Below are positions 84 to 38,022 of a DNA stretch of 64,000 bases, one piece after another; within the stretch, counting starts at the first letter, position 1; each line of letters starts with the position of its first letter. Source of the DNA: an uncultured Bacteroidales bacterium (GTDB lineage: Bacteria; Bacteroidota; Bacteroidia; Bacteroidales; Bacteroidaceae); assembly GCA_902802265.1 (NCBI GenBank), contig CADCLN010000008.1, positions 1 to 64,000 of the forward strand, in the 5' to 3' direction. The notes beneath the pieces were generated by a model. The model did no database searches and had not been told where the DNA came from. It worked only from the letters and a program-made list of their open reading frames with translations. Both the position numbers and the translations under genes were made by a program.

Positions 84-237
84 CAGTCGCACAGTTCTCG
101 CGTTGCAGTGGCATAGTTCTGCTACTTCAGTGGCATAGTTCTCTCGCTGCCGTGGGATAACTATGCCACTTGTCTGACACTGCATTGCTACCGCTGTGGG
201 ATAACTATGCCACGGCAACGGCCATGCAGTGCCACTG
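84..237. repeat. 22-bp dyad array 1
   Basis: Units start at 84, 106, 128, 150, 172, 194 and 216, an exact 22-bp spacing; the units at 172 and 216 are degenerate. Units at 106 and 128 share CAGTGGCATAGTTCT. Units at 150 and 194 share the near-palindrome GTGGGATAACTATGCCAC. No variable spacers are present, so this is not a CRISPR array. Confidence 0.75.
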
Positions 238-308
238 ATTCAACACGGGGCATTTATCGTTTCTGAGGTGTACTGATTTAGGTTGACAGTTTTCATTAGC
301 TAATTTTT

Positions 309-413
309 TGAACAAAGTTACACCATTTGGCTTAGTCTGCTTATAATCTGCCGATTAAGTCAAAAAAAGTTACATTAAAGTTACATAAAAGCTACACTAA
401 AGTTACACTAAAA
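309..413 (+). repeat. Left copy of a ~100-bp element with 11-bp iterons
   Basis: A conserved segment at about 315-360 is followed by four 11-bp direct units at about 370-413 (GTTACATTAAA, GTTACATAAAA, GCTACACTAAA, GTTACACTAAA). A near-identical copy lies in inverted orientation at 38197-38310. The spacing of 11 bp is close to one helical turn. Function unknown. Confidence 0.8.
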
Positions 414-490
414 CGAAGCATATTGATGCTTTTTCGTGCAAAATTCCATTTTTTCCCCCAAAAAACATCTGAAACAATGGAAGAAAGACA

Positions 491-801
491 ACGGATTTCT
501 TTTTCCCTTTCGTTAAATCCGTTTAATCGTTCCGCAGGAACTTGTTATATAAAAAACATATCGCTTTGCGATGATTGAACGGATTGAACGGATTTTTTGG
601 ACTACGAATTTGACGAATTTGACGAATTTGACGAACCCTCGAAACAGACGACATAAAAATCAAGCCGATGTTGCCCCTGCGGGGAGGCTTAGATTTTTGG
701 GAGTATGTAAGAGGCTCGACGAAGTCAATTAAATCCGTTTAATCGTTCCGCAGGAACTTGTTATATAAAAAACATATCGCTTCGCGAAGATTAAACGGAT
801 G
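491..801 (-). repeat. Two copies of the palindromic ~97-bp repeat, with 9-bp tandem repeats
   Basis: Copies at about 491-600 and 727-801 are reverse complements of the three tandem copies at 11590-11890. Each carries the palindromes GTTCCGCAGGAAC and TCGCTTCGCGA around an AT-rich segment. Between the copies, at about 605-636, the 9-bp unit GACGAATTT is repeated three to four times. The same 9-mer block lies in inverted orientation at 11893-11930. The intervening sequence shows no gene. Confidence 0.8.
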
Positions 802-866
802 CGGATTCAAGCCACACAAAAAATTATTTTACTTTCTAAGGAATTTTATCCTTGCCATACTTTTTG

Positions 867-898
867 CAAATGTACATAAAAGATTTTATTAGCACAAG
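867..898 (-). promoter_or_regulatory. Minus-strand promoter-like site without an obvious gene
   Basis: CAAATGTA at 867-874 reads TACATTTG on the minus strand, a good -7 element. CAAG at 895-898 gives CTTG, one base off the -33 TTTG, at a 20-bp spacing. No open reading frame follows it between 860 and 1, so it may drive a short untranslated transcript or be a chance match. Confidence 0.3.
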
Positions 899-923
899 GA
901 AAAGAGGAAAAAATAAATAAAAT

Positions 924-955
924 TTGGTTTTTCGCTCACTTAGTCGTACCTTTGC
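924..955 (+). promoter_or_regulatory. mnmG promoter
   Basis: TTTG at 924-927 and TACCTTTG at 948-955 are separated by 20 bp, a full match to the Bacteroidetes primary sigma factor promoter. The expected transcription start is a few bases downstream, giving a short leader of about 20 nt before the mnmG ATG at 980. Confidence 0.8.
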
Positions 956-979
956 AGCCAAACACTTAGGTCAGTTGAC

Positions 980-2956
980 ATGAAATTTCATTACGACGTT
1001 GTGGTGGTGGGTGCTGGTCATGCTGGATGTGAGGCGGCTGCGGCTGCGGCAAATCTGGGCGCAAAGACTTGCCTCATCACAATGGACATGAACAAGATTG
1101 CACAGATGTCGTGCAATCCTGCCGTTGGCGGCATTGCCAAGGGACAGATTGTTCGCGAGATTGATGCCCTGGGAGGACAGATGGGGCTGGTGACAGACCG
1201 CGCGTCTATCCAGTTCCGTATGTTGAACCGCTCGAAAGGGCCTGCCATGTGGAGTCCACGGGCACAGTGTGACCGCGAAAAATTCATCTGGACGTGGCGA
1301 TCTGTGCTTGACCACACAGAAAACCTGCACATTTGGCAGGATCAAGTAAGAGATCTGATTTATGAACCTGTTTGCAATCAACAACAAGAACCACCAACAA
1401 GCAGCAATAATCTTGACAATGAAAAATCGGCTAAAAGTTTTACGGAAGCTGTGCGTGTGGCAGGAGTTCGCACCTACACCGACACCGTTTTTGAAGCTAA
1501 CTGTGTGATTATCACGGCAGGAACGTTCTTGAACGGTCTGATGCACATTGGACGCACCAAACTGCAAGGTGGACGATGTGCCGAACCCGCCTCGCTGGAA
1601 CTGACCGAAAGCATTACCAAGACAGGCATACGCACCGACCGCATGAAGACGGGTACACCTGTGCGCATAGACAAACGCAGCGTGGACTTCTCGTTGATGG
1701 AAGAACAACCTGGCGACGAAATCTGCGGAACGTTCAGCTATATGAACCAAGCCAGCGAACTGAAGCAACTGCCCTGCTGGATTACTTATACCAACGAAAA
1801 GGTGCACGAGGTGCTCCGCTCGGGCTTTGCCGACTCACCGCTATATAACGGGCAGATTCAGTCCATCGGCCCACGTTATTGCCCTTCGATTGAAACCAAA
1901 CTGCACACGTTTCCCGACAAAGACCAGCACATGTTGTTCTTGGAACCAGAAGGTACGGACACAAACGAAATGTACCTGAATGGTTTTTCGTCTTCGCTCC
2001 CGATAGATGTGCAAATCGAAGCTCTCCGACAAATTCCAGCCTTCCGCAATCTGCAAGTTTATCGACCAGGTTATGCCATCGAGTATGACTTTTTCGACCC
2101 TACACAACTGACACATTCGTTGGAATCGAAAGTGGTCAGCCACTTGTTCTTTGCAGGACAGGTGAACGGTACGACGGGCTATGAAGAAGCCGCCGGACAA
2201 GGACTCATTGCAGGCATCAATGCAGCCATCAAATGCAACAGCAAACTGAACGGCGGAGACCCCTTCACGTTGTCACGCAACGAAGCCTATATCGGCGTGC
2301 TGATTGACGACCTCGTGACGAAGGGTGTGGACGAGCCATACCGTATGTTTACTTCGCGTGCCGAATATCGCATTTTGCTACGTCAAGACGATGCCGACAT
2401 GCGACTGACAGAACGCAGCTACAAGCTGGGACTTGCCACAAAAGAGCGCTATGAACGGATGGTTGAAAAGCGAGAACGGATTGAAGCCGTGATGGATTTC
2501 TGCCAGAATTTCTCCTTGAAACCAGCGCTGATTAATGATGCACTGGAAGCATTGGGCACTACCCCACTGAGCCAAGGCATCAAGTTGACAGATCTGTTGG
2601 GACGTCCTCAGATTTCATTTAAGAACATCCTTCCGCACATCGTTCCGTTGCAAAAAGCCATTGAAAAAATCTGCCACGGAGCAGTGTGCGGCACAGACGA
2701 AATTGTAGAAGCTGCGGAAATCCGCATCAAATATTCCGGCTACATCACCCGCGAACAACAAGCTGCCGAGAAGATGCTACGGCTGGAAAACATCAAAATT
2801 GCTGGCAAATTTGACTACCCCAACCTGTCGCAAATTTCCATTGAAGCCCGCCAAAAATTGCAAGCCATTCAGCCTGTAACTTTGGCACAAGCTTCACGCA
2901 TCCCTGGCGTTTCGCCCTCAGACATCAACATCATGTTGGTGCTGCTTGGCAGATGA
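980..2956 (+). CDS. mnmG: tRNA uridine-5-carboxymethylaminomethyl modification enzyme MnmG
   Basis: A 658-aa protein of the usual MnmG (GidA) length. It would work with MnmE in the cytoplasm to install the (carboxymethyl)aminomethyl group at wobble U34 of certain tRNAs, using FAD, NADH and methylene-THF. The N-terminus has the Rossmann FAD motif GAGHAGCEAA (residues ~11-20). The family signatures GGRCAEPAS and TGTPVRID follow, then the FAD-binding block GQVNGTTGYEEAAGQG and the C-terminal SRAEYRILLRQDDAD. The start at 980 follows a strong promoter. In many bacteria this gene lies near oriC, which fits the parS site 2.7 kb downstream. apt follows after a 99-bp gap. Confidence 0.97.
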   Translation: MKFHYDVVVVGAGHAGCEAAAAAANLGAKTCLITMDMNKIAQMSCNPAVGGIAKGQIVREIDALGGQMGLVTDRASIQFRMLNRSKGPAMWSPRAQCDREKFIWTWRSVLDHTENLHIWQDQVRDLIYEPVCNQQQEPPTSSNNLDNEKSAKSFTEAVRVAGVRTYTDTVFEANCVIITAGTFLNGLMHIGRTKLQGGRCAEPASLELTESITKTGIRTDRMKTGTPVRIDKRSVDFSLMEEQPGDEICGTFSYMNQASELKQLPCWITYTNEKVHEVLRSGFADSPLYNGQIQSIGPRYCPSIETKLHTFPDKDQHMLFLEPEGTDTNEMYLNGFSSSLPIDVQIEALRQIPAFRNLQVYRPGYAIEYDFFDPTQLTHSLESKVVSHLFFAGQVNGTTGYEEAAGQGLIAGINAAIKCNSKLNGGDPFTLSRNEAYIGVLIDDLVTKGVDEPYRMFTSRAEYRILLRQDDADMRLTERSYKLGLATKERYERMVEKRERIEAVMDFCQNFSLKPALINDALEALGTTPLSQGIKLTDLLGRPQISFKNILPHIVPLQKAIEKICHGAVCGTDEIVEAAEIRIKYSGYITREQQAAEKMLRLENIKIAGKFDYPNLSQISIEARQKLQAIQPVTLAQASRIPGVSPSDINIMLVLLGR

Positions 2957-2963
2957 GAGATAA

Positions 2964-3021
2964 TTATAGTAGCTATAGTGCTTATAGTTTCTATAGTGCC
3001 TATAGTTTCTATAGTGCCTAT
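2964..3021. repeat. 9-bp tandem repeat between mnmG and apt
   Basis: Successive 9-mers of the form TATAGTnnn (TATAGTTTC and TATAGTGCC alternating) repeat about six times. This is one of three unrelated sequences in the window that repeat with a 9-bp period (see 605-636 and 29151-29195). Confidence 0.75.
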
Positions 3022-3055
3022 AAAATAAAAAACAACAACTAAAACAATAACCCTT

Positions 3056-3586
3056 ATGAACACACCTTATCTTATGGAGCACCTGCGCTCCATCCCCGAC
3101 TTCCCCAAACCTGGCATCAACTTCCGCGACGTAACCACCCTGTTCAAGGACGCAAAGTGTCTTGAGATTATGGAGGAAGAACTTTATCAACTTTACAAAG
3201 ACAAGGGCATCACCAAAGTGGTGGGTCTGGAAACCCGTGGCTACATTATGGGATCCATTTTAGCCCGTCGCCTGAATGCCGGTTTTGTCATGGCGCGCAA
3301 GCCAGGCAAACTGCCTGCAACAACCATCAAGGAATCTTACTCAAAAGAGTATGGCGTGGATTCTATCGAAATGCACCTGGATGCCATTTCGCCCGACGAT
3401 GTTGTGCTCATCCACGACGACCTGCTGGCCACAGGAGGAACCATTAAGGCTGCATGGAACTTGGTGAAGAAACTGAACCCCAAGAAATGCTACATGAACT
3501 TCCTCATTGAGATTCGCGACGAAGGTTTGGCTGGACGAGAATTTATTGGCGACGGCATTGAAATCACAACACTCATCAAAGTGTAG
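3056..3586 (+). CDS. apt: Adenine phosphoribosyltransferase
   Basis: A 176-aa purine salvage enzyme that converts adenine and PRPP to AMP and pyrophosphate in the cytoplasm. The PRPP-binding loop is read as VLIHDDLLATGGT at residues ~115-127. The N-terminal FPKPGINFRD and the ARKPGKLP segment are typical of Apt. Length is normal. It ends in a TAG codon, which matters for interpreting the amber codon in the HU-family gene at 62255. It is probably co-transcribed with or close behind mnmG, although the 9-bp repeat lies between them. Confidence 0.96.
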   Translation: MNTPYLMEHLRSIPDFPKPGINFRDVTTLFKDAKCLEIMEEELYQLYKDKGITKVVGLETRGYIMGSILARRLNAGFVMARKPGKLPATTIKESYSKEYGVDSIEMHLDAISPDDVVLIHDDLLATGGTIKAAWNLVKKLNPKKCYMNFLIEIRDEGLAGREFIGDGIEITTLIKV

Positions 3587-3695
3587 CACTCCGTCCCGCA
3601 CTTCTACGTTCCACACCGAAGCGTGAAAATCACCTCAAGCACTCCCTGCAACAAGTTTTGCTAACCCACACTATTTAGTATAGTTAGACCACAAT

Positions 3696-3711
3696 TGTTT
3701 CACGTGGAACA
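3696..3711. promoter_or_regulatory. parS centromere site
   Basis: The 16-mer TGTTTCACGTGGAACA is the exact reverse complement of the widely conserved ParB-binding site TGTTCCACGTGAAACA. It lies in the apt-uvrC gap, 15 bp before the uvrC start. ParB-parS complexes normally mark the origin-proximal part of the chromosome. No parA or parB gene lies in the window. Confidence 0.85.
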
Positions 3712-3726
3712 TTAAGCAACACTTTA

Positions 3727-5550
3727 ATGGCCAAAAACGAAGAACGCATAACTCGGCTGAAGCGCATCGTCGCAGCGCTCCCCTCCTCGCCTGGATGTTA
3801 TCAATATCTGGACAAGGAAGGGAAGATTATTTATGTGGGCAAAGCGAAGAACTTAAAGAACCGCGTGTCTTCTTATTTCCACAAGACCGTTGACAGAAGA
3901 AAGACAGAGGTGCTGGTGTCAAAGATTGAGGACATCAAATATATTGTAGTGCCCACAGACGAGGATGCACTTTTGTTGGAAAACAACCTCATCAAAAAGT
4001 ACAAGCCTCGCTACAACATTCTGCTGAAAGATGGCAAAACTTATCCGTCAGTTTGCGTGACCAACGAGTACCTGCCGCGTGTTTTTAAGACCCGAAATAT
4101 ACAAAAAAAAGGTGGCACATACTATGGTCCATTTTCGCATCTTGGCACACTGAACAACATCTTGGAACTGATTAAAAAGATGTACAGCATTCGCCGTTGT
4201 AACAAACCCATGACACAGGAAGGCATAGAGAACGGCAAATACGAAACTTGTCTGGAGTATCACATCAAGAACTGTAAAGCTCCCTGCATAGCACACCAAA
4301 CACGCGAAGAATACATGAAAGAAGTGGCTGAAGTAAAAGAAATACTTAGCGGAAACACACGTATTCTTTGCCAGAAAATGCTCGCAGAAATGGAAAAACT
4401 TTCAGAGGAAATGCGGTTTGAAGAAGCCATGGTCATCAAGCGGCGTTACGATTTAGCCCTGGAATATTGTGAAAAATCCGAAGTAATATCTCATGCTTAT
4501 CACAACATAGACGTGTTCTCCATTGACGACGAAGAGAAGTCCTGTTTCATCAATTATCTACACGTCACCAACGGCTGCATCAACCAAGCTTTCACCTTTG
4601 AATACAGGAAACGCATTGACGAATCTGCTGAAGATATGCTGGCGCTTGGCATTGTGGAAATGCGTGATCGGTACAAAAGTACGTCGAAAGAGATTGTCAT
4701 TCCATTCCCCATCGACCTTGAAATGGAGGGCATCACCTTCACCATACCAGAGCGCGGAGAGAAGAAACACCTCTTGGATTTGTCGAAAATGAATGTACGA
4801 CAATACCGCATTGACAGCCTGAAACAAGCAGAAAAACTCAATCCAGAACAACGTAGCACGAATATTCTAAAAGAATTGCAGCGCAAACTGGATCTGCCCA
4901 AACTGCCCATACGTATCGAATGTTTCGATAACTCCAACATATCGGGCAGCGATGCTGTCGCTGGATGTGTGGTGTTCAAACAAACCAAACCAGCGCGTTC
5001 AGAATACCGGAAATTCAATATTAAAACGGTGGTTGGTCCCGATGATTACGCCTCTATGAAAGAAGTGGTCTATCGAAAATACCGTCGTGCCATAGACGAA
5101 GGCACCGAACTGCCAGACCTGATTATCTGCGACGGTGGCAAGGGACAGATGGAAGTGGTACGTGAGGTAATTCAAGACGAACTGCACATCGACATACCCA
5201 TCGCAGGATTGGCAAAAGACAACCGACACCGCACCAACGAACTGCTATTTGGCTTTCCACAAAAAACGATTGGCGTTGAAATGGACTCTCCCTTATTCAA
5301 ATTTCTTACCAGAATACAAGACGAAGTACACCGATTTGCCATCACATTTCACAGAGAAAAACGCAGCAAGAGTCAAACGACGAGCGAACTGGACAACATC
5401 AAAGGCATCGGACCATCTAGTAAAAAGCTACTGTTAAGAACGTTCAAGAGCATCAAACGCATCAAAGAAACCAGTATCGATGATTTGGCGAAGGTCGTTG
5501 GCACAGCAAAAGCCCAACTGATCGCCGATGCTTTTGCCATGACAACATAA
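3727..5550 (+). CDS. uvrC: Excinuclease ABC subunit C
   Basis: A 607-aa nucleotide excision repair nuclease that makes both incisions around a lesion bound by UvrAB. In order: the GIY-YIG nuclease domain (LPSSPGCYQYLD then IIYVGKAKNLKNR, residues ~15-50); a cluster of four cysteines (residues ~158-180) matching the Fe-S/zinc position in the family; a UVR helix region around 225; the RNase H-like domain with IECFDNSN and IICDGGKGQMEV; and a C-terminal tandem HhH (IKGIGPSSKKLLL). Length is normal. The parS site lies in its immediate upstream region. Confidence 0.97.
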   Translation: MAKNEERITRLKRIVAALPSSPGCYQYLDKEGKIIYVGKAKNLKNRVSSYFHKTVDRRKTEVLVSKIEDIKYIVVPTDEDALLLENNLIKKYKPRYNILLKDGKTYPSVCVTNEYLPRVFKTRNIQKKGGTYYGPFSHLGTLNNILELIKKMYSIRRCNKPMTQEGIENGKYETCLEYHIKNCKAPCIAHQTREEYMKEVAEVKEILSGNTRILCQKMLAEMEKLSEEMRFEEAMVIKRRYDLALEYCEKSEVISHAYHNIDVFSIDDEEKSCFINYLHVTNGCINQAFTFEYRKRIDESAEDMLALGIVEMRDRYKSTSKEIVIPFPIDLEMEGITFTIPERGEKKHLLDLSKMNVRQYRIDSLKQAEKLNPEQRSTNILKELQRKLDLPKLPIRIECFDNSNISGSDAVAGCVVFKQTKPARSEYRKFNIKTVVGPDDYASMKEVVYRKYRRAIDEGTELPDLIICDGGKGQMEVVREVIQDELHIDIPIAGLAKDNRHRTNELLFGFPQKTIGVEMDSPLFKFLTRIQDEVHRFAITFHREKRSKSQTTSELDNIKGIGPSSKKLLLRTFKSIKRIKETSIDDLAKVVGTAKAQLIADAFAMTT

Positions 5551-5599
5551 AGGAAATAACCTTTTCAGCATACACATATTTATAATAATAGAAAAAGAC

Positions 5600-6052
5600 A
5601 TGAGAACTGTGATACAACGTGTAGCCCACGCCTCCGTAACCATCAACAACGAAGTGAAATCAAGCATCCAGCAAGGCTACTTGGTACTATTAGGTTGCTG
5701 CAACGAAGACACCGAAGATGACATACAATGGCTCAGCAAAAAGATTGTGGGCTTGCGCGTATTCGACGATGAAATGGGCGTCATGAACAAGTCTATCTTG
5801 GATGTCGGAGGCGATATTCTGGTTGTTTCCCAATTCACGCTTTGGGCATCCTACAAGAAAGGTAATCGCCCCAGTTATCTACGTGCAGGTAGCCACGAAA
5901 TCACTATCCCACTCTATGAACGATTTGTCTCTGTACTCTCCGAACATCTGGGAAAACCCGTGCAAACTGGGGAATTTGGTGCAGAAATGAAGGTGGAATT
6001 GCTCAATGACGGTCCCGTGACCATTTGCATGGACACAAAGAACAAAGAATAA
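5600..6052 (+). CDS. dtd: D-aminoacyl-tRNA deacylase
   Basis: A 150-aa enzyme that hydrolyses D-aminoacyl-tRNA (and glycine mischarged on tRNA-Ala) to prevent chirality errors. The family motifs SQFTLWA (residues ~78-84) and NDGPVTI (~137-143) that form the cross-subunit active site are present, and the length is standard. It lies 49 bp after uvrC and about 40 bp before deoC on the same strand, so the three are probably one transcription unit. Confidence 0.96.
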   Translation: MRTVIQRVAHASVTINNEVKSSIQQGYLVLLGCCNEDTEDDIQWLSKKIVGLRVFDDEMGVMNKSILDVGGDILVVSQFTLWASYKKGNRPSYLRAGSHEITIPLYERFVSVLSEHLGKPVQTGEFGAEMKVELLNDGPVTICMDTKNKE

Positions 6053-6091
6053 CTTAATAACATATTGATAATTAAACAAAAACAAAGAATT

Positions 6092-7950: not shown

Positions 7951-7968
7951 AATCTACTAAATTTGTTG

Positions 7969-11553: not shown

Positions 11554-11589
11554 ACGGGGATGATTTAACCAACGGATTGCCGTCTATTA

Positions 11590-11890
11590 AACGAAAGAGA
11601 AACAGAAATCCGTTCAATACGTTCAATCTTCGCGAAGCGATATGTTTTTTATATAACAAGTTCCTGCGGAACGATTAAACGGATTAAACGAAAGAGAAAA
11701 AGAAATCTGTTCAATCCGATCAATCTTCGCGAAGCGATATGTTTCTTATATAACAAGTTCCTGCGGAACGATTAAACGGATTAAACGAAAGGGAAACGGA
11801 AATCCGTTCAATCCGATCAATCTTCGCGAAGCGATATGTGTTTTATATAACAAGTTCCTGCGGAACGATTAAACGGATTAAACGGATTAA
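11590..11890 (+). repeat. Three tandem copies of a 97-bp palindromic repeat
   Basis: The landmark CTTCGCGAAGCGATATG starts at 11628, 11725 and 11822, a period of 97 bp. Each unit also holds the hairpin GTTCCTGCGGAAC (5-bp stem, 3-nt loop). The units differ by a few substitutions only. Inverted copies lie at 491-801. Confidence 0.88.
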
Positions 11891-12982: not shown

Positions 12983-13070
12983 AAAACTTAACACTTATAA
13001 CGACGAAACACAGCACTTGTCATTTCAAAACACGGCACTTGTCAAATCAAAACTTAACTCCTGTTAAATA
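12983..13070. repeat. 22-bp array 2
   Basis: Four units start at 12983, 13005, 13027 and 13049, exactly 22 bp apart, each opening with AAAAC or GAAAC. The middle two share the core CACTTGTCA, and the last contains the dyad TTAACTCCTGTTAA. It lies 94 bp upstream of the zinc peptidase start codon. Confidence 0.75.
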
Positions 13071-18175: not shown

Positions 18176-18213
18176 CAGCCCCTCCGCAGTGATGCGTGGG
18201 GGCTGTGTTTTTG
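18176..18213 (+). terminator. Intrinsic terminator before the ychF promoter array
   Basis: CAGCCCC...GGGGCTG forms a GC-rich stem with minor mismatches (18176-18205), followed by TGTTTTTG. It insulates ychF from the upstream secreted-protein unit. Confidence 0.7.
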
Positions 18214-18500
18214 TACTCACTTAATCGTGCCGTTGGCTAACGCCCAAGGTACTTGCGCTCGACAAAATCAAAGAAAAAATGCTTTTCTCTTTGTTTTTGT
18301 ACTCACTTAATCGTACCGTTGGCTGACGCCCAAGGTACTTGCGCTCGACAAAATCAAAGAAAAAATGCTTTTCTCTTTGCTTTTGTACTCACTTAATCGT
18401 GCCGTTGGCTAACGCCCAAGGTACTTCCGCTCGACAAAATCAAAGAAAAAAATGCTTTTCTCTTTGCTTTTGTACTCACTTAATCGTACCTTTGCACGCA
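18208..18500 (+). repeat. 86-bp tandem repeat containing promoter copies
   Basis: The landmark GTACTCACTTAATCG starts at 18213, 18299, 18385 and 18472 (periods 86, 86 and 87). The final partial unit carries the functional promoter. The earlier units hold degenerate -7 versions (TGCCGTTG, TACCGTTG, TGCCGTTG). Long apparent reading frames here are products of the repeat. Confidence 0.88.
18463..18494 (+). promoter_or_regulatory. ychF promoter
   Basis: TTTG at 18463-18466 and TACCTTTG at 18487-18494 are 20 bp apart, a perfect match, giving a ~15-nt leader before the ATG at 18514. It sits in the last unit of the 86-bp tandem repeat. Confidence 0.8.
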
Positions 18501-25495: not shown

Positions 25496-26437
25496 TTAAT
25501 GTGTTGTTGCGTTGGCTGTGAGATAGGCCGCAGCAAACTCCTTGCTGATGGAGTTGTGGATGCTCTGACAAACTTCGGTGGCAAGGGCTGTGCCGTGAGC
25601 CACAATCTTGTCCCACTCGGCGGCGGAAAGGGTGGGGAGGTCGCTGCGCTTCACACCGGCTGCCATCAGACCAAAGACCACGCCGGCGTTGAAGTTGTCG
25701 CCCGCACCGATGGTTGAGACGGTCTGAATCTGCTGCACCTTGTAGTCCTTCTGCAGGGTGGGGGTGAAAAGGCGGATAGCTCCATCGGCATCGGTGCAGA
25801 GCATCTGTTTGCAGTAGAAGGAAACCTCCTGGTGGTAAGCCTGCGCTGCATCGTCGATGCCGAACATGTTATGGAAATCCTCGGTAGATCCGCGCACGAT
25901 ATCAGCCAGTTCAAAGTTCTCCAGGATGGAAGAATAGAGATTGATGGCCTCGGAAGCATGTGTGGAGCGGAAATTGATGTCGTAGTAGATGAGCGCCTCA
26001 CGGCGGCGGGCATAGTCGAGAAACTCTTTCACCTTCGGACGAAGCACCGGATTCAGCACGAAATAGGAACCCATCATGACGATGTCGTCCTTCTGGATGT
26101 CGGGCCACTTCACATCGAGCCGCGCCTTGGGGTAGTCCTTGTAGAAGGTGTATTCAGCATCGTTGCGCTCGTTGAGGTATGCCAGCGAAATGGCAGTTCG
26201 GCCGTCTTCATAGACGCACACGCTGCTGTCATCTACACCGTTTTCCTTCATGAAGCGCTTGATGATGCCGCCCACGCGGTCGTTACCAGTCTCGGTGATC
26301 ATCGTCACGTTCTGACGCAAACGGCCCAGCGACACGATGCCGTTGAACACGGAGCCGCCAGGGACTGCCGCTGTGGGTTGCTCGTTCTTGAAGATAATGT
26401 CGAGAATGGTCTCGCCAATGCCAATAATCTTTCTCAT
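25496..26437 (-). CDS. PfkB-family carbohydrate kinase (fructokinase-like)
   Basis: A 313-aa ribokinase-superfamily sugar kinase. N-terminal GIGETILDIIF and PGGSVFNGIVSLGRL form the substrate side. The C-terminal signature STIGAGDNFNAGVVFG (residues ~233-248) carries the catalytic Asp and the anion hole. Substrate is probably fructose or a related hexose, but it cannot be fixed from sequence. It starts 26 bp upstream of the helicase gene. The four-unit 21-bp operator-like array at 26542-26619 lies 105 bp upstream of its start codon. Confidence 0.88.
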   Translation of the reverse strand: MRKIIGIGETILDIIFKNEQPTAAVPGGSVFNGIVSLGRLRQNVTMITETGNDRVGGIIKRFMKENGVDDSSVCVYEDGRTAISLAYLNERNDAEYTFYKDYPKARLDVKWPDIQKDDIVMMGSYFVLNPVLRPKVKEFLDYARRREALIYYDINFRSTHASEAINLYSSILENFELADIVRGSTEDFHNMFGIDDAAQAYHQEVSFYCKQMLCTDADGAIRLFTPTLQKDYKVQQIQTVSTIGAGDNFNAGVVFGLMAAGVKRSDLPTLSAAEWDKIVAHGTALATEVCQSIHNSISKEFAAAYLTANATTH

Positions 26438-26541
26438 AATTATTCTGTCTGTCTTTTAGTTCTATCGAAAATCGGTCAATATGTGGATTAAAACTGCCAA
26501 CACTGGGAAATAAACTTCGCAGAAGCCGTGATATTTCTTGG

Positions 26542-26619
26542 AATCACACTTTGATTCTTATAAATCATGACGTGATTCTTACAAATCATGACGTGATTTG
26601 TAGAAATCACACTTTGATT
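26542..26619. promoter_or_regulatory. 21-bp dyad array 3, operator-like
   Basis: Four perfect AATCA-N5-TGATT dyads start at 26542, 26563, 26584 and 26605, exactly 21 bp apart. The 5-bp spacers are CACTT, TGACG, TGACG, CACTT, so the whole array is arranged symmetrically. Two helical turns per unit put all dyads on one face of DNA. It lies between the M16 gene end and the kinase gene start, upstream of the kinase on its strand. Confidence 0.8.
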
Positions 26620-26721
26620 TCAAGTTTTGTTGCGGCTGTGGGGAAGTTTGTTGTGCAGTGTGCATCGGTTTATGGTGTATGTTGGGCTGTTTTATAGTGA
26701 AGTGCCGGAGGCAGGGGGATG

Positions 26722-31154: not shown

Positions 31155-31670
31155 TTAATTGCTGTAACCCAGTCGCTGGAGTACTTCGTCGCTGATGTCA
31201 ATCTTGGGTGAGGCAAAGATGATGCTGCCGCCCGACGCACGGTCCAGTACGAGCTGGAAACCTTTCTTGTCGCAGATGTCCTTCACGGCATTGTAGATTT
31301 CGTCCTGAATGGGCGACATGAGGCTCTGACGCTTCTTGAAGAGTTCGCCCTCAGCACCAAAGTACTTTTTCTTCAGTTCGCTGGCTTCCTTTTCTTTGGC
31401 TACAATTGCCTCTTCGGCTTTGGTCTTCTGGGCATCGGAGAGGAATACGGATTCCGATTGATACTTCTTGTAGAGTGTTTCCACTTCGTTGAGTAAGGCT
31501 TGAATCTCGCCTTCCCACTTCTTGCTGACCTGATTCAGCTGTTCGTTGGCACGTTCATACGCGGGCACATTCTTCAATATGTACTCCATGTCAACGAGCG
31601 CAAATTTCTGCGCATTGGCTGTCAAAGCTCCTGCAAGGACAACCATTATTGTCAATAAAAGCTTTTTCAT
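31155..31670 (-). CDS. Periplasmic chaperone, Skp/OmpH family (first copy)
   Basis: A 171-aa protein with a cleavable signal (MKKLLLTIMVVLAGALTANA) and KFALVDMEYILKNVPAYE at the mature N-terminus. A Lys/Glu-rich helical hairpin spans ~50-120. It is the copy closest to bamA (123 bp gap). Three Skp-type genes in a row after bamA is more than the pair seen in many relatives. Confidence 0.88.
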   Translation of the reverse strand: MKKLLLTIMVVLAGALTANAQKFALVDMEYILKNVPAYERANEQLNQVSKKWEGEIQALLNEVETLYKKYQSESVFLSDAQKTKAEEAIVAKEKEASELKKKYFGAEGELFKKRQSLMSPIQDEIYNAVKDICDKKGFQLVLDRASGGSIIFASPKIDISDEVLQRLGYSN

Positions 31671-31793
31671 TTTGTTGTTGTTTTAAAAATTCGGTGCAAA
31701 TATCTGTATTTTTATTTTGATGCCATGTAGGGAAAAACCTATGTTGAACGGCAAAAACACTATGCGTAGTAGTGGAACCCCCAAGACGGAAGG

Positions 31794-34433
31794 CTAAAAT
31801 TCTTGTCCGAGGATGAAGTGGAACTGGCTGCCGCCATAACTCTTCGAGCCAAAGACTTTGTCGAATCCGTAAGCCCAGTCGATACCCATCAGACCCACCA
31901 TTGGGAGGAAAAGACGGACACCCACGCCTGCTGAACGTTTCAGGTCGAAAGGATTGAAGCGCTTCACATGATTCCAGGCATTACCACCTTCCACGAAAGC
32001 CAACGCATAGATGTTGGTTGAGTTGTCGAGCAACAATGGGTATCTCAGTTCCAACGTCATTCGTGTATAAGCATAACCTTCGCTGCCGTAAGGTGTGAGA
32101 CAACCGTTTTCGTAACCGCGCAGACCAATGGTTTCGGTGTAGTAACTGGTTGAGTAGCCCGACATACCGTCACCACCCATGTAGTAGGTCTCGAAAGGTG
32201 AACGCTTGTATTTGTTGTAACTGCCTAGGAAACCACAGTCAAGTCGTGCCATCAGCACAAAACATTTCTTGGCGCTGGACAGCGGGGTGTAGAATTTCGA
32301 TTTGAACGACCACTTGTGATACTCAATCCACTTGTACTTCTTCTGCATATCCGTGCGGTAGTTTGCATCCGCCGTAGAAGAGGCTAAGTGTTCGTAGTCC
32401 ACACCGTCCCACAGCGAATAGGGTGGGGTAAAGGAGGCAGACATGGATATCTGAGAACCGTAGCGCGGGAAGAAGGGATGGTCAATGTTGTTGCGTTCAA
32501 GCGAGAAGGTCAGATTCACGTTGTTGCAATTACCATCCGTTATCAGGAAGTACTCCCAGTCTTTCAACATATAGCGCGTATAGCCCAACGACGTTCTGAA
32601 GTAGAAGTTGTTGTCGGGCCAGTTCAGACGCTTACCCCAACCTACAGATACTCCCAACAGCATGATGTACTTGTCTGGGTCGTAGAAGTTAGAGTAGTTG
32701 TTGTAGTAGCTGGAATTGTAGTTACCATAACCATAGAGCATGGAGAGGTAGTTGTTGTAGTAGTTGGAATTGTAGTAAGCACTGCTCACGTCAGTCTGGC
32801 GAGAAAAGAATGCGCTGACCATGAACTGATTCGGACGCTTGCGACCGAACCAAGAGTCGGAGAACGAAATGCTGTAGGACTGATAGTAACGGCCATTCGT
32901 AGAACCCGAAAGTTCCAGCTGCTGTGCATCGCCCTGTGGCAGGAAGCCACGACGCATTCCGTTCTTGGAGAACAGATTGCGCATGGAGAAGTTGGTAAAC
33001 TTCAAGCCAATCTTACCAATCACACCGGTCTGTCCCCAACCCAGCGAAAACTCAATTTGGTCACTTGCTTTCGGCGTCAGACCAATACTCAAGTCCACCG
33101 TACCGTTCAGTTGGTCGGGCTGAATCCACTTGCTGGGTTCCAGAGCCTCTGGTGCAAAGTGTCCCATCTGTGCGATTTCCTGGTAAGTCATCTTGAAGGC
33201 ATCCATGGAGAACAAGTCGCCTGGCTTCAATTTCAATTCACGGCGCACCACTTCTTCGTACACACGTGTGTTACCATAAATCTTTATCTTGTTGATAGAA
33301 GCCTGCACGCCCTCGACGATACGAATTTCCAGATCAATGCTGTCGCCTTCTTCGCCGACTTCCACAGGCACAACCTGATTGAACAGATAACCCTGGTTGG
33401 AATAATAATTAGCCACAGCGTCGTCGTCCACGTTCAAGCGGTTCTTGATGTGCTTTTGATTATAGACATCACCACGCTTCATGCGCAGCACGCCGTTCAG
33501 TCTGTCCGTACTGTAAAGGGTATTGCCCGTCCAAGTGATATTGCGTACATAATATTTATCGCCTTCTTCCAAACCGAGATAGATGTCCACGGTGTTGTCG
33601 CCATTATCCACCACGCTGTCCTTCACAATGTTGGCATCGCGATAGCCCAATTCATTGTATTTCTCGATGACGCGCTCCTTGTCTTCGGCATAATTCTCGG
33701 CGATGAACTTCTTCTTTTTCAGCAAACTCTTGAAGCCCTTTTCGTTGGTCTTCTTTAACAAACCGCCCGAGAAGAAATTACCGTGAAACTTCTTGGTCTT
33801 GATATGCTTATTGCCCGTGATGTAAATCTTCCGCACTTTCACTTTTTCGTGCTTGTCGATATTTACATCCAGAATCAGCTGGTCAGGGTGTGTTGGGTCG
33901 TCGTGCTGCACAATATCGACGTCGGCATTACGGAATCCCTTGGCATCGAAATAGTTCTTCACCACAATCTTGGCATGGTCAATCATGTTCGGAGTCACCT
34001 GATTGCCCCTCACCAGACCCATCTTCTCTTCCAAATCCTTTTGTTCGCTCTTCTTGACGCCCCAAATGTTCACCTTCGACACACGTGGACGTGTTGCCAG
34101 CGTAATCTTCAGATAGATCTTTTCATCTACGATGCTGTCAGCCTCAATCTTCACCGACGAGAACAAGCCATGCTTCCAGTAGCGTTTCACCGCATCGGTA
34201 ATCTCGTCGCCAGGGACAGAGATGGTTTCACCCACCGTCAGTCCCGACAGCCCAATCAGCACATAGTCTTCATAATTCTTCACGCCTTCCACAGCGATGC
34301 CACCAATCTCCAGCTTACGGCTTTGCCCGTAAACCACCGACGGCTTCACTTGCGCATCGTCCTGAGCCTCCACACAGAGCGGAGCCAGCACCCATGCCAT
34401 GGCACAAAGAAATATATTCTTCAAGAATTTCAC
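31794..34433 (-). CDS. bamA: Outer membrane protein assembly factor BamA
   Basis: An 879-aa Omp85-family protein that folds beta-barrels into the outer membrane. A signal peptide (cleavage near VEAQ, residue ~24) is followed by about five POTRA repeats (~40-430); segments such as ISKVNIWGVKK and VRKIYITGNKHIK mark repeat starts. The rest is the 16-strand barrel, rich in Tyr/Asn loops. The late VGVRLFLPMVGLMGIDWAYGFD and terminal aromatic LGQEF are typical. The start is GTG at 34433. It lies between uppS and the Skp genes, the usual Bacteroidales order. Confidence 0.95.
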   Translation of the reverse strand: MKFLKNIFLCAMAWVLAPLCVEAQDDAQVKPSVVYGQSRKLEIGGIAVEGVKNYEDYVLIGLSGLTVGETISVPGDEITDAVKRYWKHGLFSSVKIEADSIVDEKIYLKITLATRPRVSKVNIWGVKKSEQKDLEEKMGLVRGNQVTPNMIDHAKIVVKNYFDAKGFRNADVDIVQHDDPTHPDQLILDVNIDKHEKVKVRKIYITGNKHIKTKKFHGNFFSGGLLKKTNEKGFKSLLKKKKFIAENYAEDKERVIEKYNELGYRDANIVKDSVVDNGDNTVDIYLGLEEGDKYYVRNITWTGNTLYSTDRLNGVLRMKRGDVYNQKHIKNRLNVDDDAVANYYSNQGYLFNQVVPVEVGEEGDSIDLEIRIVEGVQASINKIKIYGNTRVYEEVVRRELKLKPGDLFSMDAFKMTYQEIAQMGHFAPEALEPSKWIQPDQLNGTVDLSIGLTPKASDQIEFSLGWGQTGVIGKIGLKFTNFSMRNLFSKNGMRRGFLPQGDAQQLELSGSTNGRYYQSYSISFSDSWFGRKRPNQFMVSAFFSRQTDVSSAYYNSNYYNNYLSMLYGYGNYNSSYYNNYSNFYDPDKYIMLLGVSVGWGKRLNWPDNNFYFRTSLGYTRYMLKDWEYFLITDGNCNNVNLTFSLERNNIDHPFFPRYGSQISMSASFTPPYSLWDGVDYEHLASSTADANYRTDMQKKYKWIEYHKWSFKSKFYTPLSSAKKCFVLMARLDCGFLGSYNKYKRSPFETYYMGGDGMSGYSTSYYTETIGLRGYENGCLTPYGSEGYAYTRMTLELRYPLLLDNSTNIYALAFVEGGNAWNHVKRFNPFDLKRSAGVGVRLFLPMVGLMGIDWAYGFDKVFGSKSYGGSQFHFILGQEF

Positions 34434-34451
34434 TTCTATCCTTTTTATCTG

Positions 34452-35195
34452 TTAAACCTTTCCCGTCACCTGTTCGCCAGTTTTTCCGAAACGGCGCTGA
34501 CGGTGCTGATAATCCACCACTGCTTTGTACAGACACTCCTCGTCAAAGTCTGGCCAGTAAGTATCAGTGAAATAAAGCTCCGTGTAGGCAGACTGCCACA
34601 GCAGGAAATTGCTCAGACGCTCTTCACCACCTGTGCGGACCAGCAATTCGGGTTCTGGCATGAAGTTCGTCATCAGGTGTTGGTCAATCGTCTCAGCCGT
34701 GATGTCTTCGGGTTTCAGCTTGCCTTCCTGCACCTCCTCAGCAATAAGGCGGACAGCACGCTGCATTTCCCATCGGGTGGAATAGCTGAATGCCACCACC
34801 ATACACGAGGCGTCGTTATTCTTCGTCCGTTCCATCAGCTGACGGCAAGCGTTCTGCTGATGCTCAGGCAAACGTGATATGTCGCCAATGATTGTAAAGC
34901 GGATATTGTTCTTCACGAATATCTCCTCCTCCAGATGCTTCAGCATCAGGTCCAGCAGATAATTCACCTCAGCCTCAGGACGGCTCCAGTTCTCCGTAGA
35001 AAAGGCATAGTAGGTCATGTACTTAATACCCAGTCTCGCCCCGCACGTCATGATGTCGTGCATACGGTCAGCTCCTGCCGAGTGACCAAAACTGCGCTCC
35101 TGACCCTGAGCCTGTGCCCACCTGCCGTTGCCGTCCATGATGAATGCTACATGCTTGGGCACACGAGTCATATCTATTTGTTCTTTATACGACAT
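34452..35195 (-). CDS. uppS: Isoprenyl (undecaprenyl) diphosphate synthase
   Basis: A 247-aa cis-prenyltransferase making the C55 carrier lipid for peptidoglycan and polysaccharides. The catalytic MDGNGRWA (residues ~20-27), GHSAGADRM, YAFSTENWSRP and the C-terminal RTGGEERLSNFLLWQSAYTE are all family signatures. The ATG at 35195 is preferred to an in-frame codon 12 bp upstream. A short ATTTACC-type repeat lies just upstream (35208-35232). Confidence 0.95.
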   Translation of the reverse strand: MSYKEQIDMTRVPKHVAFIMDGNGRWAQAQGQERSFGHSAGADRMHDIMTCGARLGIKYMTYYAFSTENWSRPEAEVNYLLDLMLKHLEEEIFVKNNIRFTIIGDISRLPEHQQNACRQLMERTKNNDASCMVVAFSYSTRWEMQRAVRLIAEEVQEGKLKPEDITAETIDQHLMTNFMPEPELLVRTGGEERLSNFLLWQSAYTELYFTDTYWPDFDEECLYKAVVDYQHRQRRFGKTGEQVTGKV

Positions 35196-35207
35196 ATTAT
35201 TTACCAT

Positions 35208-35232
35208 TTACAATTTACCATTTACTATTTTT
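35208..35232. repeat. ATTTACC-type short tandem repeat
   Basis: Imperfect 7-mers ATTTACC/ATTTACA repeat about four times. The same kind of run occurs at 7985-8008, 39112-39155, 41536-41570 and 50455-50490, always in gaps between genes. Confidence 0.6.
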
Positions 35233-35262
35233 GCAAACTTCGCAAAGCGCCAAACGCTCAGC

Positions 35263-35928
35263 TCAGTCATTGTTACACTTCCTCAGCCGTGGCCAGAAGT
35301 CATACGAGACATACAGCATAGTCCAGCAATAGGAGTCGCGGTTCTTCAGGAAACCACTCTTAATCCCGTAGAGGTCGCCGATGCCATCCAGCTTGTCGCT
35401 TAACGAGAAGCGCACAGTCCAGTCCAAGCCCACGTTCACACGGTTTGCCACCTTGTACTTCACACCGAAACCCACGGGGATATTCATCGTGAAGGCTCCC
35501 TTCGTGGCAGTAAAGCCCAGTCCCAACTGGATGTAAGGCACCAGCCTGTGTGTATTCTTATAGCTTGCACCCGTGCCATAAGCCCAGAAATGCATTTCGT
35601 ACTGACAACCCACATCAATCAGCGAGCGTTTGAACTTCAATCTCTCGCGGTCCACATCCGCAGGGAAGGCACCCTTCGATGCATCGCCCGAAATGCCGCC
35701 ATAGGCCAAGTCAAACTTCAGAGCCATTCGCGGATTCAGGTTATAGCGAGCTATCGCGCCGCCACCCAGGTTGATGTGCTTGTACAATCCGCCGCCGGCA
35801 TCACCCTGATAGGTGCTGGTGCCCAACATACCGCCAATCTCCATCTTATATTCCAACTCTGTCTGAGCATGGGCTGAAACGCAAAATGAAAACGGAAGAA
35901 TGAAGAACAGCCAGTGGGCGAACTTCAT
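35263..35928 (-). CDS. porG: DUF6089/PorG-like outer membrane protein
   Basis: A 221-aa predicted eight-stranded beta-barrel after a signal peptide (MKFAHWLFFILPFSFCVSAHA). The TELEYKMEIGGMLGTSTYQGD start and the C-terminal GDLYGIKSGFLKNRDSYCW match the DUF6089 family that includes PorG of the type IX secretion system. The conserved neighbourhood with uppS and bamA supports this. A longer frame extends to 35991, but the ATG at 35928 begins the signal peptide. It would act with the T9SS that exports cargo such as the 13679 protein. Confidence 0.8.
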   Translation of the reverse strand: MKFAHWLFFILPFSFCVSAHAQTELEYKMEIGGMLGTSTYQGDAGGGLYKHINLGGGAIARYNLNPRMALKFDLAYGGISGDASKGAFPADVDRERLKFKRSLIDVGCQYEMHFWAYGTGASYKNTHRLVPYIQLGLGFTATKGAFTMNIPVGFGVKYKVANRVNVGLDWTVRFSLSDKLDGIGDLYGIKSGFLKNRDSYCWTMLYVSYDFWPRLRKCNND

Positions 35929-35969
35929 GCTACATATAGTATCTTTTCTTCTCAATCTTCTCATGCTTC

Positions 35970-37358
35970 TTACTGAATCACACCTCGCCACACGATGCCT
36001 CCCTGCTGTACAACATACAACGTATTGCCCAGCAGCACCGTGCTGGCAGGTCCGTCAGTAGCCTTCAATCCTGCAGGCAACAACCACTTGGCATTCTGCA
36101 AATGCCAGGCGATGCCGTGGTCTTCTGAACGGTAAAAGCCTTCAAACTTATAGCTTCCATCAGTCTGGCGGCGGCGCCCCATGGCATAAAGATTACCTTC
36201 ATGGAAGATGGTGCTCATCTCCTCCAGCAGCGGACAGCCGTGGGCATTGTCGCCCGTCACCTTGATGTAACGCCACGCGTCGTCATACTCGTCTCTCTCG
36301 CTTGCCGTCTTGTACCAAGTGACACCATTCGCCGTGTTTTCGCTGCTGATGCCACCCATCATCGCCATGGTCAAATCGCTGTTTGTCTGTGCCGGAACAG
36401 AATAGCTATAGATGCTGCGCTGAGGCAACATCCCCACGTCGGGCGTGCCTTCTGCACTCCACTTCACCATGTCGGTCGTGCCCATTATCATCGTGCCGTC
36501 CGTACCATACAGATGGATGCCGTCGGAACCCAAGAGCCTTTTCAGCTGCGTGTCGGCCACCTTCGTCCAGGCAACACCCTTCAGCCGTTCCGTCGTGGTA
36601 TAGAGATTGCCCAAATCATCGATGGCATAGAATTGTCCTTTATAGATGGTGACAGACTGATAGTCAATCGTACCCTCCGCACCCGTCAAGACCGTCGGAT
36701 CAGTCCACGACTGTCCGTCCAGCGAACTGGTCACCTGCGGCTTCGAAGCTTCGTTCTGCGAAAAAACAAAGATGCGGCGCACCAGAGAGTCCGTCAGGTT
36801 CCTGTCCTTGTAAGTGGCTGCCAGCATCATAGCTCTATGTTCACCTGTCAGCTGCAGATTTGCCGACGAGAGGCGTTCCCACAGAATGGTGTCGGAAACG
36901 GCTCCGCGCTTCGTGATGGTCAGCGTATAGTTCTTCCGATACTGTCCATCCGTCGATATGCAAACCAACTTGCACGGCTCTGTCACATTGATGGAGTCCG
37001 TTCCGGAAGTAATGCCCCACAGCAGGGAATCTTTCTCCATAAAGACATTGCCATAACTCGTGAACGTGGGCAATACCTTTGTCAACGTAATCCAATAGGG
37101 CAGGGGGTCCACATTCTGAATGGTGCCAGCCTTCTGGTCAATATTGAAATAGATATTACTGCCCGACACCACTCGCTTCGAGCTTACACTGTTGCCCTGA
37201 GCGTCCTTCGTCGAAACATAGCTCACGATGCTTCCCACCGAAAACGCAGTAATGGCACAAAACGGCTCACCACTCTCCGAATCGCTCTTCAGACACGATT
37301 GCAGACAGAGTACAGCCGCACACAATATCGCTATTTTAAATAAAAATCCTTTCATCAT
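35970..37358 (-). CDS. Beta-propeller-like lipoprotein (DUF6242-type)
   Basis: A 462-aa lipoprotein with lipobox LQSC at about residues 17-20 after a hydrophobic signal. The N-terminal ~150 residues look like an immunoglobulin/cadherin-like region. The remainder has repeating beta-blade patterns (LDGQSWTDPTV, RSEDHGIAWHLQNAKW) resembling sialidase-type propellers without visible catalytic residues. It matches the general layout of Bacteroidales DUF6242 proteins of unknown role. ATG at 37358 or 37355 both fit. A TACTTTTG -7 element lies at 37452-37445 on the minus strand. Confidence 0.72.
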   Translation of the reverse strand: MMKGFLFKIAILCAAVLCLQSCLKSDSESGEPFCAITAFSVGSIVSYVSTKDAQGNSVSSKRVVSGSNIYFNIDQKAGTIQNVDPLPYWITLTKVLPTFTSYGNVFMEKDSLLWGITSGTDSINVTEPCKLVCISTDGQYRKNYTLTITKRGAVSDTILWERLSSANLQLTGEHRAMMLAATYKDRNLTDSLVRRIFVFSQNEASKPQVTSSLDGQSWTDPTVLTGAEGTIDYQSVTIYKGQFYAIDDLGNLYTTTERLKGVAWTKVADTQLKRLLGSDGIHLYGTDGTMIMGTTDMVKWSAEGTPDVGMLPQRSIYSYSVPAQTNSDLTMAMMGGISSENTANGVTWYKTASERDEYDDAWRYIKVTGDNAHGCPLLEEMSTIFHEGNLYAMGRRRQTDGSYKFEGFYRSEDHGIAWHLQNAKWLLPAGLKATDGPASTVLLGNTLYVVQQGGIVWRGVIQ

Positions 37359-37567
37359 TTCGGGTACGTTCAGTGTGTAACACACATTCCTGGAAAAAGG
37401 GGCAGACACAAAACACTAAACGCAAAACATTCAAAAAAAGCGCACAAAAGTACGAACTTTTTTCGGCTTCATTGCCCTAAACCTATGTTTTTTAATGAAA
37501 TTTATAGAGAAAAAGTGCTTTTATTAACAAAACCTATCATTCCGCAACAGCAAAAAAGCAAAAACTT

Positions 37568-37825
37568 TCATTGGTTTAACTCAAACTGCACACCCTCTCC
37601 ATCCACCGAAACCTTCCGATACTCCACCGGAGTCACAGCATACAGAGCCTTGATGTCACCCTTTCTGCGCTGCATCTCAATCTCCTGTTTTATCCGCTCC
37701 GTTTCATCATCGCCATCACCCTTCACCATACGTTTCGTGTGCGAACAACCCATTGTGCCATACCCCAATGCACACAGCAAAAGGGACAGCACGTAATTAT
37801 AACCATGAAAAAATTTCTGTTTCAT
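37568..37825 (-). CDS. Small lipoprotein
   Basis: An 85-aa protein with a hydrophobic signal (VLSLLLCALGYGTMGC) ending in a lipobox Cys, then a short charged, probably helical region and a C-terminal strand-like segment. The N-terminus recalls small lipoproteins that in Bacteroidales often accompany radical SAM genes, and a radical SAM gene lies at 38323. The match is by resemblance only. A consensus promoter lies upstream. Confidence 0.6.
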   Translation of the reverse strand: MKQKFFHGYNYVLSLLLCALGYGTMGCSHTKRMVKGDGDDETERIKQEIEMQRRKGDIKALYAVTPVEYRKVSVDGEGVQFELNQ

Positions 37826-37855
37826 ATCGACCACGATTTTATGCCAAAACTACGA

Positions 37856-37887
37856 CAAAGGTACGCCGTTTCTGCGAAACACCCAAA
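37856..37887 (-). promoter_or_regulatory. Promoter of the small lipoprotein gene
   Basis: On the minus strand TTTG (37887-37884) and TACCTTTG (37863-37856) are 20 bp apart, a perfect promoter. Array 4 begins 52 bp further upstream. Confidence 0.78.
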
Positions 37888-37938
37888 CTTTTTTCACGTT
37901 TTCTAACGACAAAAATCTCAAAACACAGCACAAAACTT

Positions 37939-38022
37939 AAAACAACGCCACTGTTTTTAAAAACAACGTCGCTGTTTATAAAAACATCGGGCTTGTTTCT
38001 GAAAACATCGCCGTTGTTTTAA
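37939..38022. repeat. 21-bp dyad array 4
   Basis: Four units start at 37939, 37960, 37981 and 38002, exactly 21 bp apart. Each follows AAAACA-N(7)-TGTTT, an imperfect dyad. A degenerate fifth unit may start at 37920. It lies 114 bp upstream of the lipoprotein start codon. The rest of the 37826-38322 gap holds the iteron element at 38197 and no visible gene. Confidence 0.78.

Follow-up and report, generated by a model that had tools for sequence, protein, structure and literature searches.

Two of the four short tandem arrays in the 64,000-nucleotide stretch analyzed here (the window; positions 1 to 64,000 of contig CADCLN010000008.1, assembly GCA_902802265.1, from an uncultured, Prevotella-like gut bacterium of the Bacteroidaceae) belong to a class of arrays, usually of four palindromes at a 21-bp period, that also often stand in front of genes for little-studied proteins in which an HU-type DNA-bending dimerization domain (Pfam HU-HIG) is followed by a C-terminal winged helix (HU-wHTH). 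Judging from sequence comparison, these two, arrays 3 and 4, are probably platforms for HU-wHTH proteins: each palindrome would take up one dimer, and each protein, with its private half-sites, would regulate its own gene and occupy dispersed organizing or insulating sites. What was computed directly comprises the arrays with their 21-bp period and usual four units, their private motifs and dispersal, their association with HU-wHTH genes, and the positions kept and newly gained between relatives. The genome of the window is labeled G000 (2.88-Mb assembly, 85.65% complete), other genomes carry labels of the same kind, and the families of arrays 1 to 4 are labeled F1 to F4.

An earlier note on this DNA had described the four arrays as one architecture of 21- or 22-bp units with mostly dyad symmetry. 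Their places and periods were recovered here, with autocorrelation peaks at lags of 22, 22, 21, and 21 bp for arrays 1 to 4, respectively. The common architecture held for half of them: arrays 3 and 4 consist of four strict palindromes at 21 bp and arrays 1 and 2 do not, array 2 being a direct repeat (0/30 F2 members reached a dyad score of 22) and array 1 only partly dyadic (9/29 F1 members). Likewise, the AAAACA...TGT core that had been noticed in arrays 2 and 4 is visible in both, but array 2 is not palindromic there. A scan of the window for sets of four dyads in phase, at any period between 16 and 35 bp, gave arrays 3 and 4 as the sole places scoring at least 24 out of 32 (4/637 overlapping tiles, each array being hit twice, versus 0/1,911 shuffled tiles). 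Arrays 1 and 2 are dispersed 22-bp repeats outside the HU-wHTH explanation.

One F3 array precedes G000:C7:50843-51472, the only HU-wHTH gene found in the G000 assembly, and in each of four species (G000, G014, RUI437, and G019) an HU-wHTH gene has an F3 array upstream. Genes recurring beside F3 arrays across species encode an ABC-transporter ATPase (four), a PadR regulator (three), and an HU-HIG protein with a C-terminal winged helix (three). The HU gene was singled out because G019 has just two exact F3 pairs and one of them adjoins an HU-wHTH gene. In a first set of 20 long HU-HIG genes, 19 of them chosen regardless of arrays, 10 of the 15 HU-wHTH genes with enough upstream DNA carried a period-21 array scoring at least 22, of other sequence. 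Five of the 20 were dropped before the larger count described below, as they lacked a winged helix (L255, L256, and L259), had another C terminus (L257), or had only 36 bp of upstream DNA (L258).

The association was then seen in 79 distinct HU-wHTH genes, for which the best four-dyad score upstream (maximum, 32) was recorded with periods of 16 to 35 bp allowed. A score of at least 24 was reached by 36/79 genes, all at period 21, and a score of at least 22 by 52, of which 49 had period 21. At the latter threshold, two controls, coding starts and downstream regions, gave 0/79 each. Furthermore, 42/79 genes exceeded the maximum of their own 100 shuffles, again all at period 21. Leaving out the four genes previously known for F3 arrays changed little (33/75 at ≥24 and 45/75 at ≥22, period 21). 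Among 29 other HU-HIG genes, mostly short and without a winged helix, none scored at least 24 and one at least 22 (period 23), and only 3 of 174 other genes scored at least 24, namely those of arrays 3 and 4 plus one at an HU-wHTH locus. Start codons of several genes had been reset to the conserved N terminus, including that of L270, which had entered the control of other genes via its divergent neighbor. The number four was also apparent from the mean dyad scores of the 42 promoter arrays scoring at least 23: 5.95 to 6.60 across the four units, dropping to 2.81 and 2.15 at the adjoining positions, against a background of 2.07; some of these arrays may have a fifth unit in degenerate form. Their median distance to the start codon was 96.5 bp. 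For L378 and L379, the best promoter arrays (scores, 22 and 21) repeat every 22 bp, and some branches may thus depart from period 21.

The array-adjacent proteins belong to HU-HIG (Pfam PF18291, an HU domain fused to a winged helix, Ig, or Gly-rich motif; TIGR01201, HU_rel). Profile A1 of the HU-wHTH proteins found matches in at least 99 of 199 genomes and at least 16 of the 22 genera of the family (E ≤ 1e-20); this count and that of the HU-HIG gene search are lower bounds, a capped number of candidates having been scored in some genomes. All 16 of 16 A1 members matched both PF18291 and TIGR01201 at E ≤ 0.01; the first member lay above the Pfam cutoff and below the NCBIfam cutoff. A structure model of the G014 HU-wHTH protein contained a confident winged helix at residues 151 to 210 (predicted local distance difference test [pLDDT], 81 to 92 by block), and HU folds headed its Foldseek list.

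Motifs were compared among 43 promoter arrays with the dyad centered on a base. Similarity rose with winged-helix identity, from 0.23 below 30% (90 pairs), 0.31 and 0.30 at 30 to 50% (738 pairs), and 0.43 at 50 to 60% (64 pairs) to 0.75 at 60 to 80% (9 pairs) and 0.99 above 80% (2 pairs), and the two quantities were correlated (Mantel r, 0.21; 0/2,000 permutations). The HU part correlates equally, and the motif data therefore do not single out the winged helix. The G093 HU-wHTH promoter array (AAACAACG-N-CGTTGTTT) carries the array 4 motif. The earlier note had offered two readings. The first, a family of regulators whose half-sites differ, is well supported for arrays 3 and 4 by the 36/79 HU-wHTH genes at period 21, by motifs that track the protein, and by the recurrence of these motifs in the six genomes treated below; it does not extend to arrays 1 and 2.

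Arrays of each family are dispersed in G000. F3 comprised 28 exact unit pairs in 11 arrays and F4 comprised 48 unit pairs (up to one mismatch) in 17 arrays, reversed-pattern controls yielding 0 for both. With one mismatch per unit allowed, four units were present in 10/11 F3 and 16/17 F4 arrays, the exceptions having three and two units. The inner bases of F3 units fall into two main types, and several arrays have them in the order A B B A, as does array 3 (CACTT, TGACG, TGACG, CACTT). The flanks of F3 and F4 arrays are mirror images, and the sequence AAAACTT next to the core is common to both. For F2, 37 BLAST matches at E ≤ 10 gave approximately 30 convincing places, and for F1, at least 109 matches fell in at least 40 places (40 of 80 candidates scored). 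No HU-HIG gene was present among the matches at the F1, F2, and F4 loci examined. Different families adjoin at G000:C14:48058-48358, C41:20189-20367, and C1:194285-194485 (F2 with F1 twice, F2 with F4 once), as if landing places were common to them.

In six of six genomes looked at, the motif of an HU-wHTH promoter recurs elsewhere in the same genome. Dispersal follows the protein. In G024, where 40 of the 54 candidates were scored, the HU-wHTH promoter motif occupied at least 40 places; all 20 of the 20 further places fetched scored 24 to 30 with periods of 20 to 22 allowed. Approximately ten further copies lie at contig ends, which indicates that assemblies break at these arrays. The same motif was found in at least 10 places in G016, whose HU-wHTH promoter has a similar motif; the three distinct G016 places read matched the motif of that promoter array. 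In six genomes with other HU-wHTH motifs, the best E value for the G024 motif among the matches listed was 7e-4. The pairing was put to the test in G096, a genome noticed for ten F4-like unit pairs, and its HU-wHTH gene (L434) indeed has four units of this F4-like motif upstream. The flanks of the G024 arrays L414 to L433 tend to form inverted repeats (CAGCCGTG...TTCT / AGAA...CACGGCTG).

Comparison with relatives revealed both kept and gained positions. Among 45 genomes of the genus, exact F3 pairs occurred in G000, G014 (69), and G019 (2), and exact F4 pairs only in G000, plus once in G014. The F3 arrays of G014 have kept the half-sites and the 21-bp period, with four units in 18/19 arrays fetched, and have other inner bases (TTGTT and CACAA) and other flanks (ATAGGCAA). 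For 6 of the 11 G000 F3 arrays, an F3 array of G014 lies beside the same gene (three pairs aligned), and as unit and flank sequences differ at these shared positions, positions can persist while both change in concert. Arrays of F3 type with inner bases and flanks of their own were likewise found in CAMOPD01 (four units in 13/13) and CAJOHO01 (four units in 3/4). The array upstream of pfkB, array 3, was present in only 1 of 30 orthologs, that of G000 itself (43 genomes had a match, and a locus was obtained from 30 of them). The upstream gene is conserved, and the intergenic DNA there measures 284 bp in G000 versus 66 bp in G014, the left flank of array 3 being part of the extra DNA. Taken together, the single ortholog and the longer intergenic region indicate that arrays arise at new places. 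The second reading of the earlier note, an amplification that copies local palindromes at promoters, is on this evidence probably true in part. Absence from orthologous promoters, which the note had counted against its proposal, was found at pfkB and is not general, given the six positions shared with G014. In what appear to be orthologous upstream regions, L130 (G014) carries an F4-like array and L025 (G000) an F2 array.

Binding, bending, autoregulation, and function of HU-wHTH proteins at the arrays are what we infer from these patterns. One HU-wHTH dimer would read each 15- to 17-bp palindrome through its two winged helices, and dimers, usually four, would line up along the same side of the double helix at intervals of two turns. 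In-phase bends of the HU type every 21 bp would add up to roughly a single tight loop over approximately 84 bp. Through the array approximately 100 bp upstream of the start codon, each protein, which has a half-site of its own, would adjust its own gene; the short distance between array and gene noted above suggests such autoregulation. The same kind of array dispersed in intergenic DNA may act as a sequence-specific chromosome-organizing or insulating site and sometimes as an operator. Array 3 would be bound by the product of the HU-wHTH gene at G000:C7:50843-51472 and array 4 by an unassembled HU-wHTH paralog; motifs like that of array 4 precede HU-wHTH genes in G093 and G096.

Several observations weigh against this interpretation. 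The 79 genes were the best-scoring matches plus the earlier set rather than a random sample, and 30 of them have no period-21 array scoring at least 22. The correlation between motif and protein is weak, and that for the HU part (0.22) is no lower than that for the winged helix (0.21). No F4-type HU-wHTH gene was present among the 8 HU-HIG matches in the 85.65% complete G000 assembly, and exact F4 unit pairs are absent from G093. In the G014 model, the HU part was poor (mean pLDDT, 58.6), and no Foldseek match to that model reached an E value of 0.001. Nor does the HU-wHTH gene recur most often beside F3 arrays: the ABC-transporter ATPase was found there in four species of the clustering, and HU-wHTH genes in three of it plus G019. 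Nor is the number four without exception: 10 of the 42 promoter arrays have a dyad score of at least 5 just outside the four units, the two dispersed G096 arrays read (L382 and L383) both have three units, the fourth CAJOHO01 array has five, and F3-type arrays of other species range from two to five.

A further point against is the placement of the dispersed arrays, which are not tied to gene starts. The gene calls came from our own small hexamer scorer, which makes the following gene-end classes uncertain, especially close to contig ends. In G000, 3 F3 arrays lay between convergent, 5 between tandem, and 3 between divergent genes (expected fractions from intergenic DNA of the same loci, 0.17, 0.49, and 0.34), and the corresponding numbers for F4 were 4, 8, and 5 (expected, 0.07, 0.55, and 0.38). 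Among 14 classed G024 arrays, 6 were convergent, 6 tandem, and 2 divergent, with 6 more at an edge; in G014, 0/20 classed arrays were convergent, 13 were divergent, and 7 were tandem, with 7 at an edge. The distances of arrays 2, 3, and 4 to their minus-strand start codons given in the earlier note (94, 105, and 114 bp) were confirmed, the spacers measuring 93, 104, and 113 bp. However, placement 94 to 114 bp upstream is not general, since by the same gene calls the nearest gene start facing a G000 array is 104 to 281 bp away for F3 and 126 to 778 bp away for F4, and 3/11 and 4/17 arrays, respectively, lie between convergent genes. A shared pathway of F3 targets was rejected, as none emerged from the 10 neighbor proteins annotated (ABC ATPase, HU-HIG, PadR, ArgS, OmpA, CotH, ABC-F, nucleotidyl transferase, PfkB, and trigger factor; ArgS comes from the G014 side). 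A role in chromosome organization or insulation accounts for such mixed placement better than a classic regulon does, and some arrays may be used as operators.

The HU-wHTH proteins and their arrays would together represent a sequence-specific nucleoid protein with dispersed sites. A bolder reading is that of a self-spreading operator. We hold it only tentatively, as a possibility with somewhat less than an even chance, that HU-wHTH proteins form a family-wide set of sequence-specific nucleoid proteins folding DNA at four-dimer, one-turn platforms, each with a private operator that is seeded from its own promoter, spreads, and is rewritten in concert as specificity changes, giving species-specific addresses for chromosome folding or insulation.

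The strongest alternative is that the arrays are mobile, nonautonomous elements resembling miniature inverted-repeat transposable elements (MITEs) or repetitive extragenic palindromic (REP) sequences, spread by a transposase, with the HU-wHTH gene a mere landing place or host factor and with no regulatory role. Inverted-symmetric flanks beyond the core in G000, G014, CAMOPD, and G024, the presence of array plus flanks as extra DNA at pfkB in G000 only, a placement not tied to gene starts, and the many copies all agree with such elements. Mirror-image flanks, which may or may not correspond to the terminal inverted repeats of a MITE, are present, with ends that are not delimited; at the pfkB site, the flanks of G000 and G014 align too poorly to define element ends. 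A single landing place cannot explain arrays of differing motif before 36 to 49 of 79 HU-wHTH genes with 0/79 in two controls, and an array does not simply repeat one sequence, only palindrome, phase, and mostly the number four being kept. We therefore regard mobile elements without a regulatory role as rather unlikely, although the spread of arrays and their binding by HU-wHTH proteins can both be true at once. An RNA reading was also considered and rejected: by eye, the differences between left and right flanks in G014 do not appear to compensate each other.

Alternatively, the arrays could be operators of another, octameric regulator of the Lrp/AsnC type, with the HU-wHTH gene only a frequent target. 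The four dimers of such an octamer would account for the number four. However, HU-wHTH genes carry differing motifs, similar motifs going with similar proteins, the 29 other HU-HIG genes have no strong arrays, and the association points to HU-wHTH; moreover, no Lrp gene was among the 10 annotated neighbors, Lrp genes not having been searched for in the genomes. This explanation is improbable. Least credible of all is that slippage or another local amplification at promoters built the arrays one by one, as the tandem period and the outer F3 flanks of G000, which resemble decayed 22-bp repeats, might suggest, since slippage would give variable copy numbers rather than four units in 10/11, 16/17, 18/19, and 13/13 arrays of four families and would not place one motif at unrelated loci.

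Among DNA-bending proteins, HU is the classic example of one that shows little preference for sequence. HU-HIG is already a named domain family, and a 2017 comparative-genomics paper on clades of the HU superfamily reportedly exists; what appears to be new is the four-palindrome addresses, the private motif of each protein, and the dispersal. In an open-licence library that lacks most subscription journals, we found no DNA target or four-palindrome operator of HU-HIG proteins and likewise no private motif per protein or array dispersal. MatP-matS, ParB-parS, and Noc-NBS are sequence-specific chromosome proteins with dispersed single-palindrome sites and a slowly changing motif. The sites described here are likewise dispersed and palindromic, but they are arrays, mostly of four, with a private motif for each protein. 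REP sequences and bacterial interspersed mosaic elements (BIMEs) with their RAYT transposase combine one chromosomal gene beside the repeat with many dispersed copies and fast turnover between species. All three features recur here, but the gene encodes an HU-winged-helix protein and not a transposase, and the units, unlike those of REP sequences and BIMEs, stand mostly in fours at fixed helical phase.

In the literature covered, the nearest published relative of the repeat side is BrickBuilt, a dispersed intergenic MITE of Porphyromonas gingivalis with 19 copies in one strain, 23-nt tandem direct repeats (approximately two helical turns) with a leader and a tail, short inverted-repeat ends, and a length of 84 to 991 nt (PMC4596501). 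Like the arrays, it is found in Bacteroidales, is dispersed between genes, and is made of two-turn tandem repeats; unlike the 21-bp palindromic units of arrays 3 and 4, its units are direct repeats of 23 nt, the stem "palindrom-" is absent from the text of that paper, and the parts covered name no paired DNA-binding protein (PMC4596501). On the parts covered, BrickBuilt resembles F1 and F2 more than F3 and F4 (PMC4596501).

If the platforms are what they appear to be, a large HU-winged-helix family with readable addresses would offer a handle on sequence-specific chromosome architecture in the Bacteroidaceae, a main bacterial family of the mammalian gut. The target of an uncharacterized HU-wHTH protein would often be readable from its own promoter, and its genome-wide sites would follow. 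As dozens of these proteins come with predicted half-sites, protein-DNA coevolution would become directly testable.

Table 1. Arrays 1 to 4 of the window with their flanks and the gene downstream of array 3
Feature	Position in window	Strand	Description
Array 1 (F1)	84..237		Partly dyadic 22-bp lattice with >4 positions; units resemble GTRGSA-N6-TSCYAC and occur in either orientation; different kind from arrays 3 and 4
Array 2 (F2)	12985..13067		Four 22-bp direct repeats, nondyadic; different kind from arrays 3 and 4
pfkB-family carbohydrate kinase	25496..26437	-	Gene downstream of array 3
Array 3 left flank	26462..26541 (extent approximate)		Inverted-symmetric degenerate ~22-bp repeats, AAACTTG/CACTG
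Array 3 (F3)	26542..26619		Four AATCA-N5-TGATT palindromes, 21-bp period, 6-bp spacers
Array 3 right flank	26620..26699 (extent approximate)		Mirror image of left flank
Array 4 left flank	37921..37939		..CACAAAACTTA; AAAACTT end like F3
Array 4 (F4)	37940..38019		Four AAACA-N7-TGTTT palindromes, 21-bp period, 4-bp spacers
Array 4 right flank	38020..38040		Mirror image of AAAACTT/AAAAGTT end

Between array and start codon, a TAnnTTTG sequence is present for arrays 2 and 4; none was found within one mismatch between array 3 and its start codon. For the gene at array 4, the gene caller chose a start later than the ATG at 37825. Elsewhere in the window, a short HU-HIG gene without a winged helix (62279-62620, plus strand) contains one in-frame TAG and is otherwise a well-scoring member (83.3 bits). 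Tandem repeats of a 97-bp unit (3.1 copies, 11586-11884) and an 86-bp unit (3.3 copies, 18209-18494) were also present, and the 97-bp unit resembles, by eye, sequence near 490-590. Repeats of 11 bp (GTGTAACTTTA, one helical turn) occur at 365-413 and 38204-38246, where they sit, again by eye, in a longer sequence common to both places in opposite orientation.

A scan of the genome collection (80 of 87 stretches listed) returned several stretches, from Treponema, Tannerella, Saprospiraceae, Planctomycetaceae, and others, that look like unrelated repeats. L158 and L167 (Treponema) and L182, L193, and L199 (Tannerella, termite gut) are palindromic 21-bp arrays of five to seven units and of other sequence, not of the four-unit kind. 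In viral contigs, 7 stretches contained an F4 unit pair.

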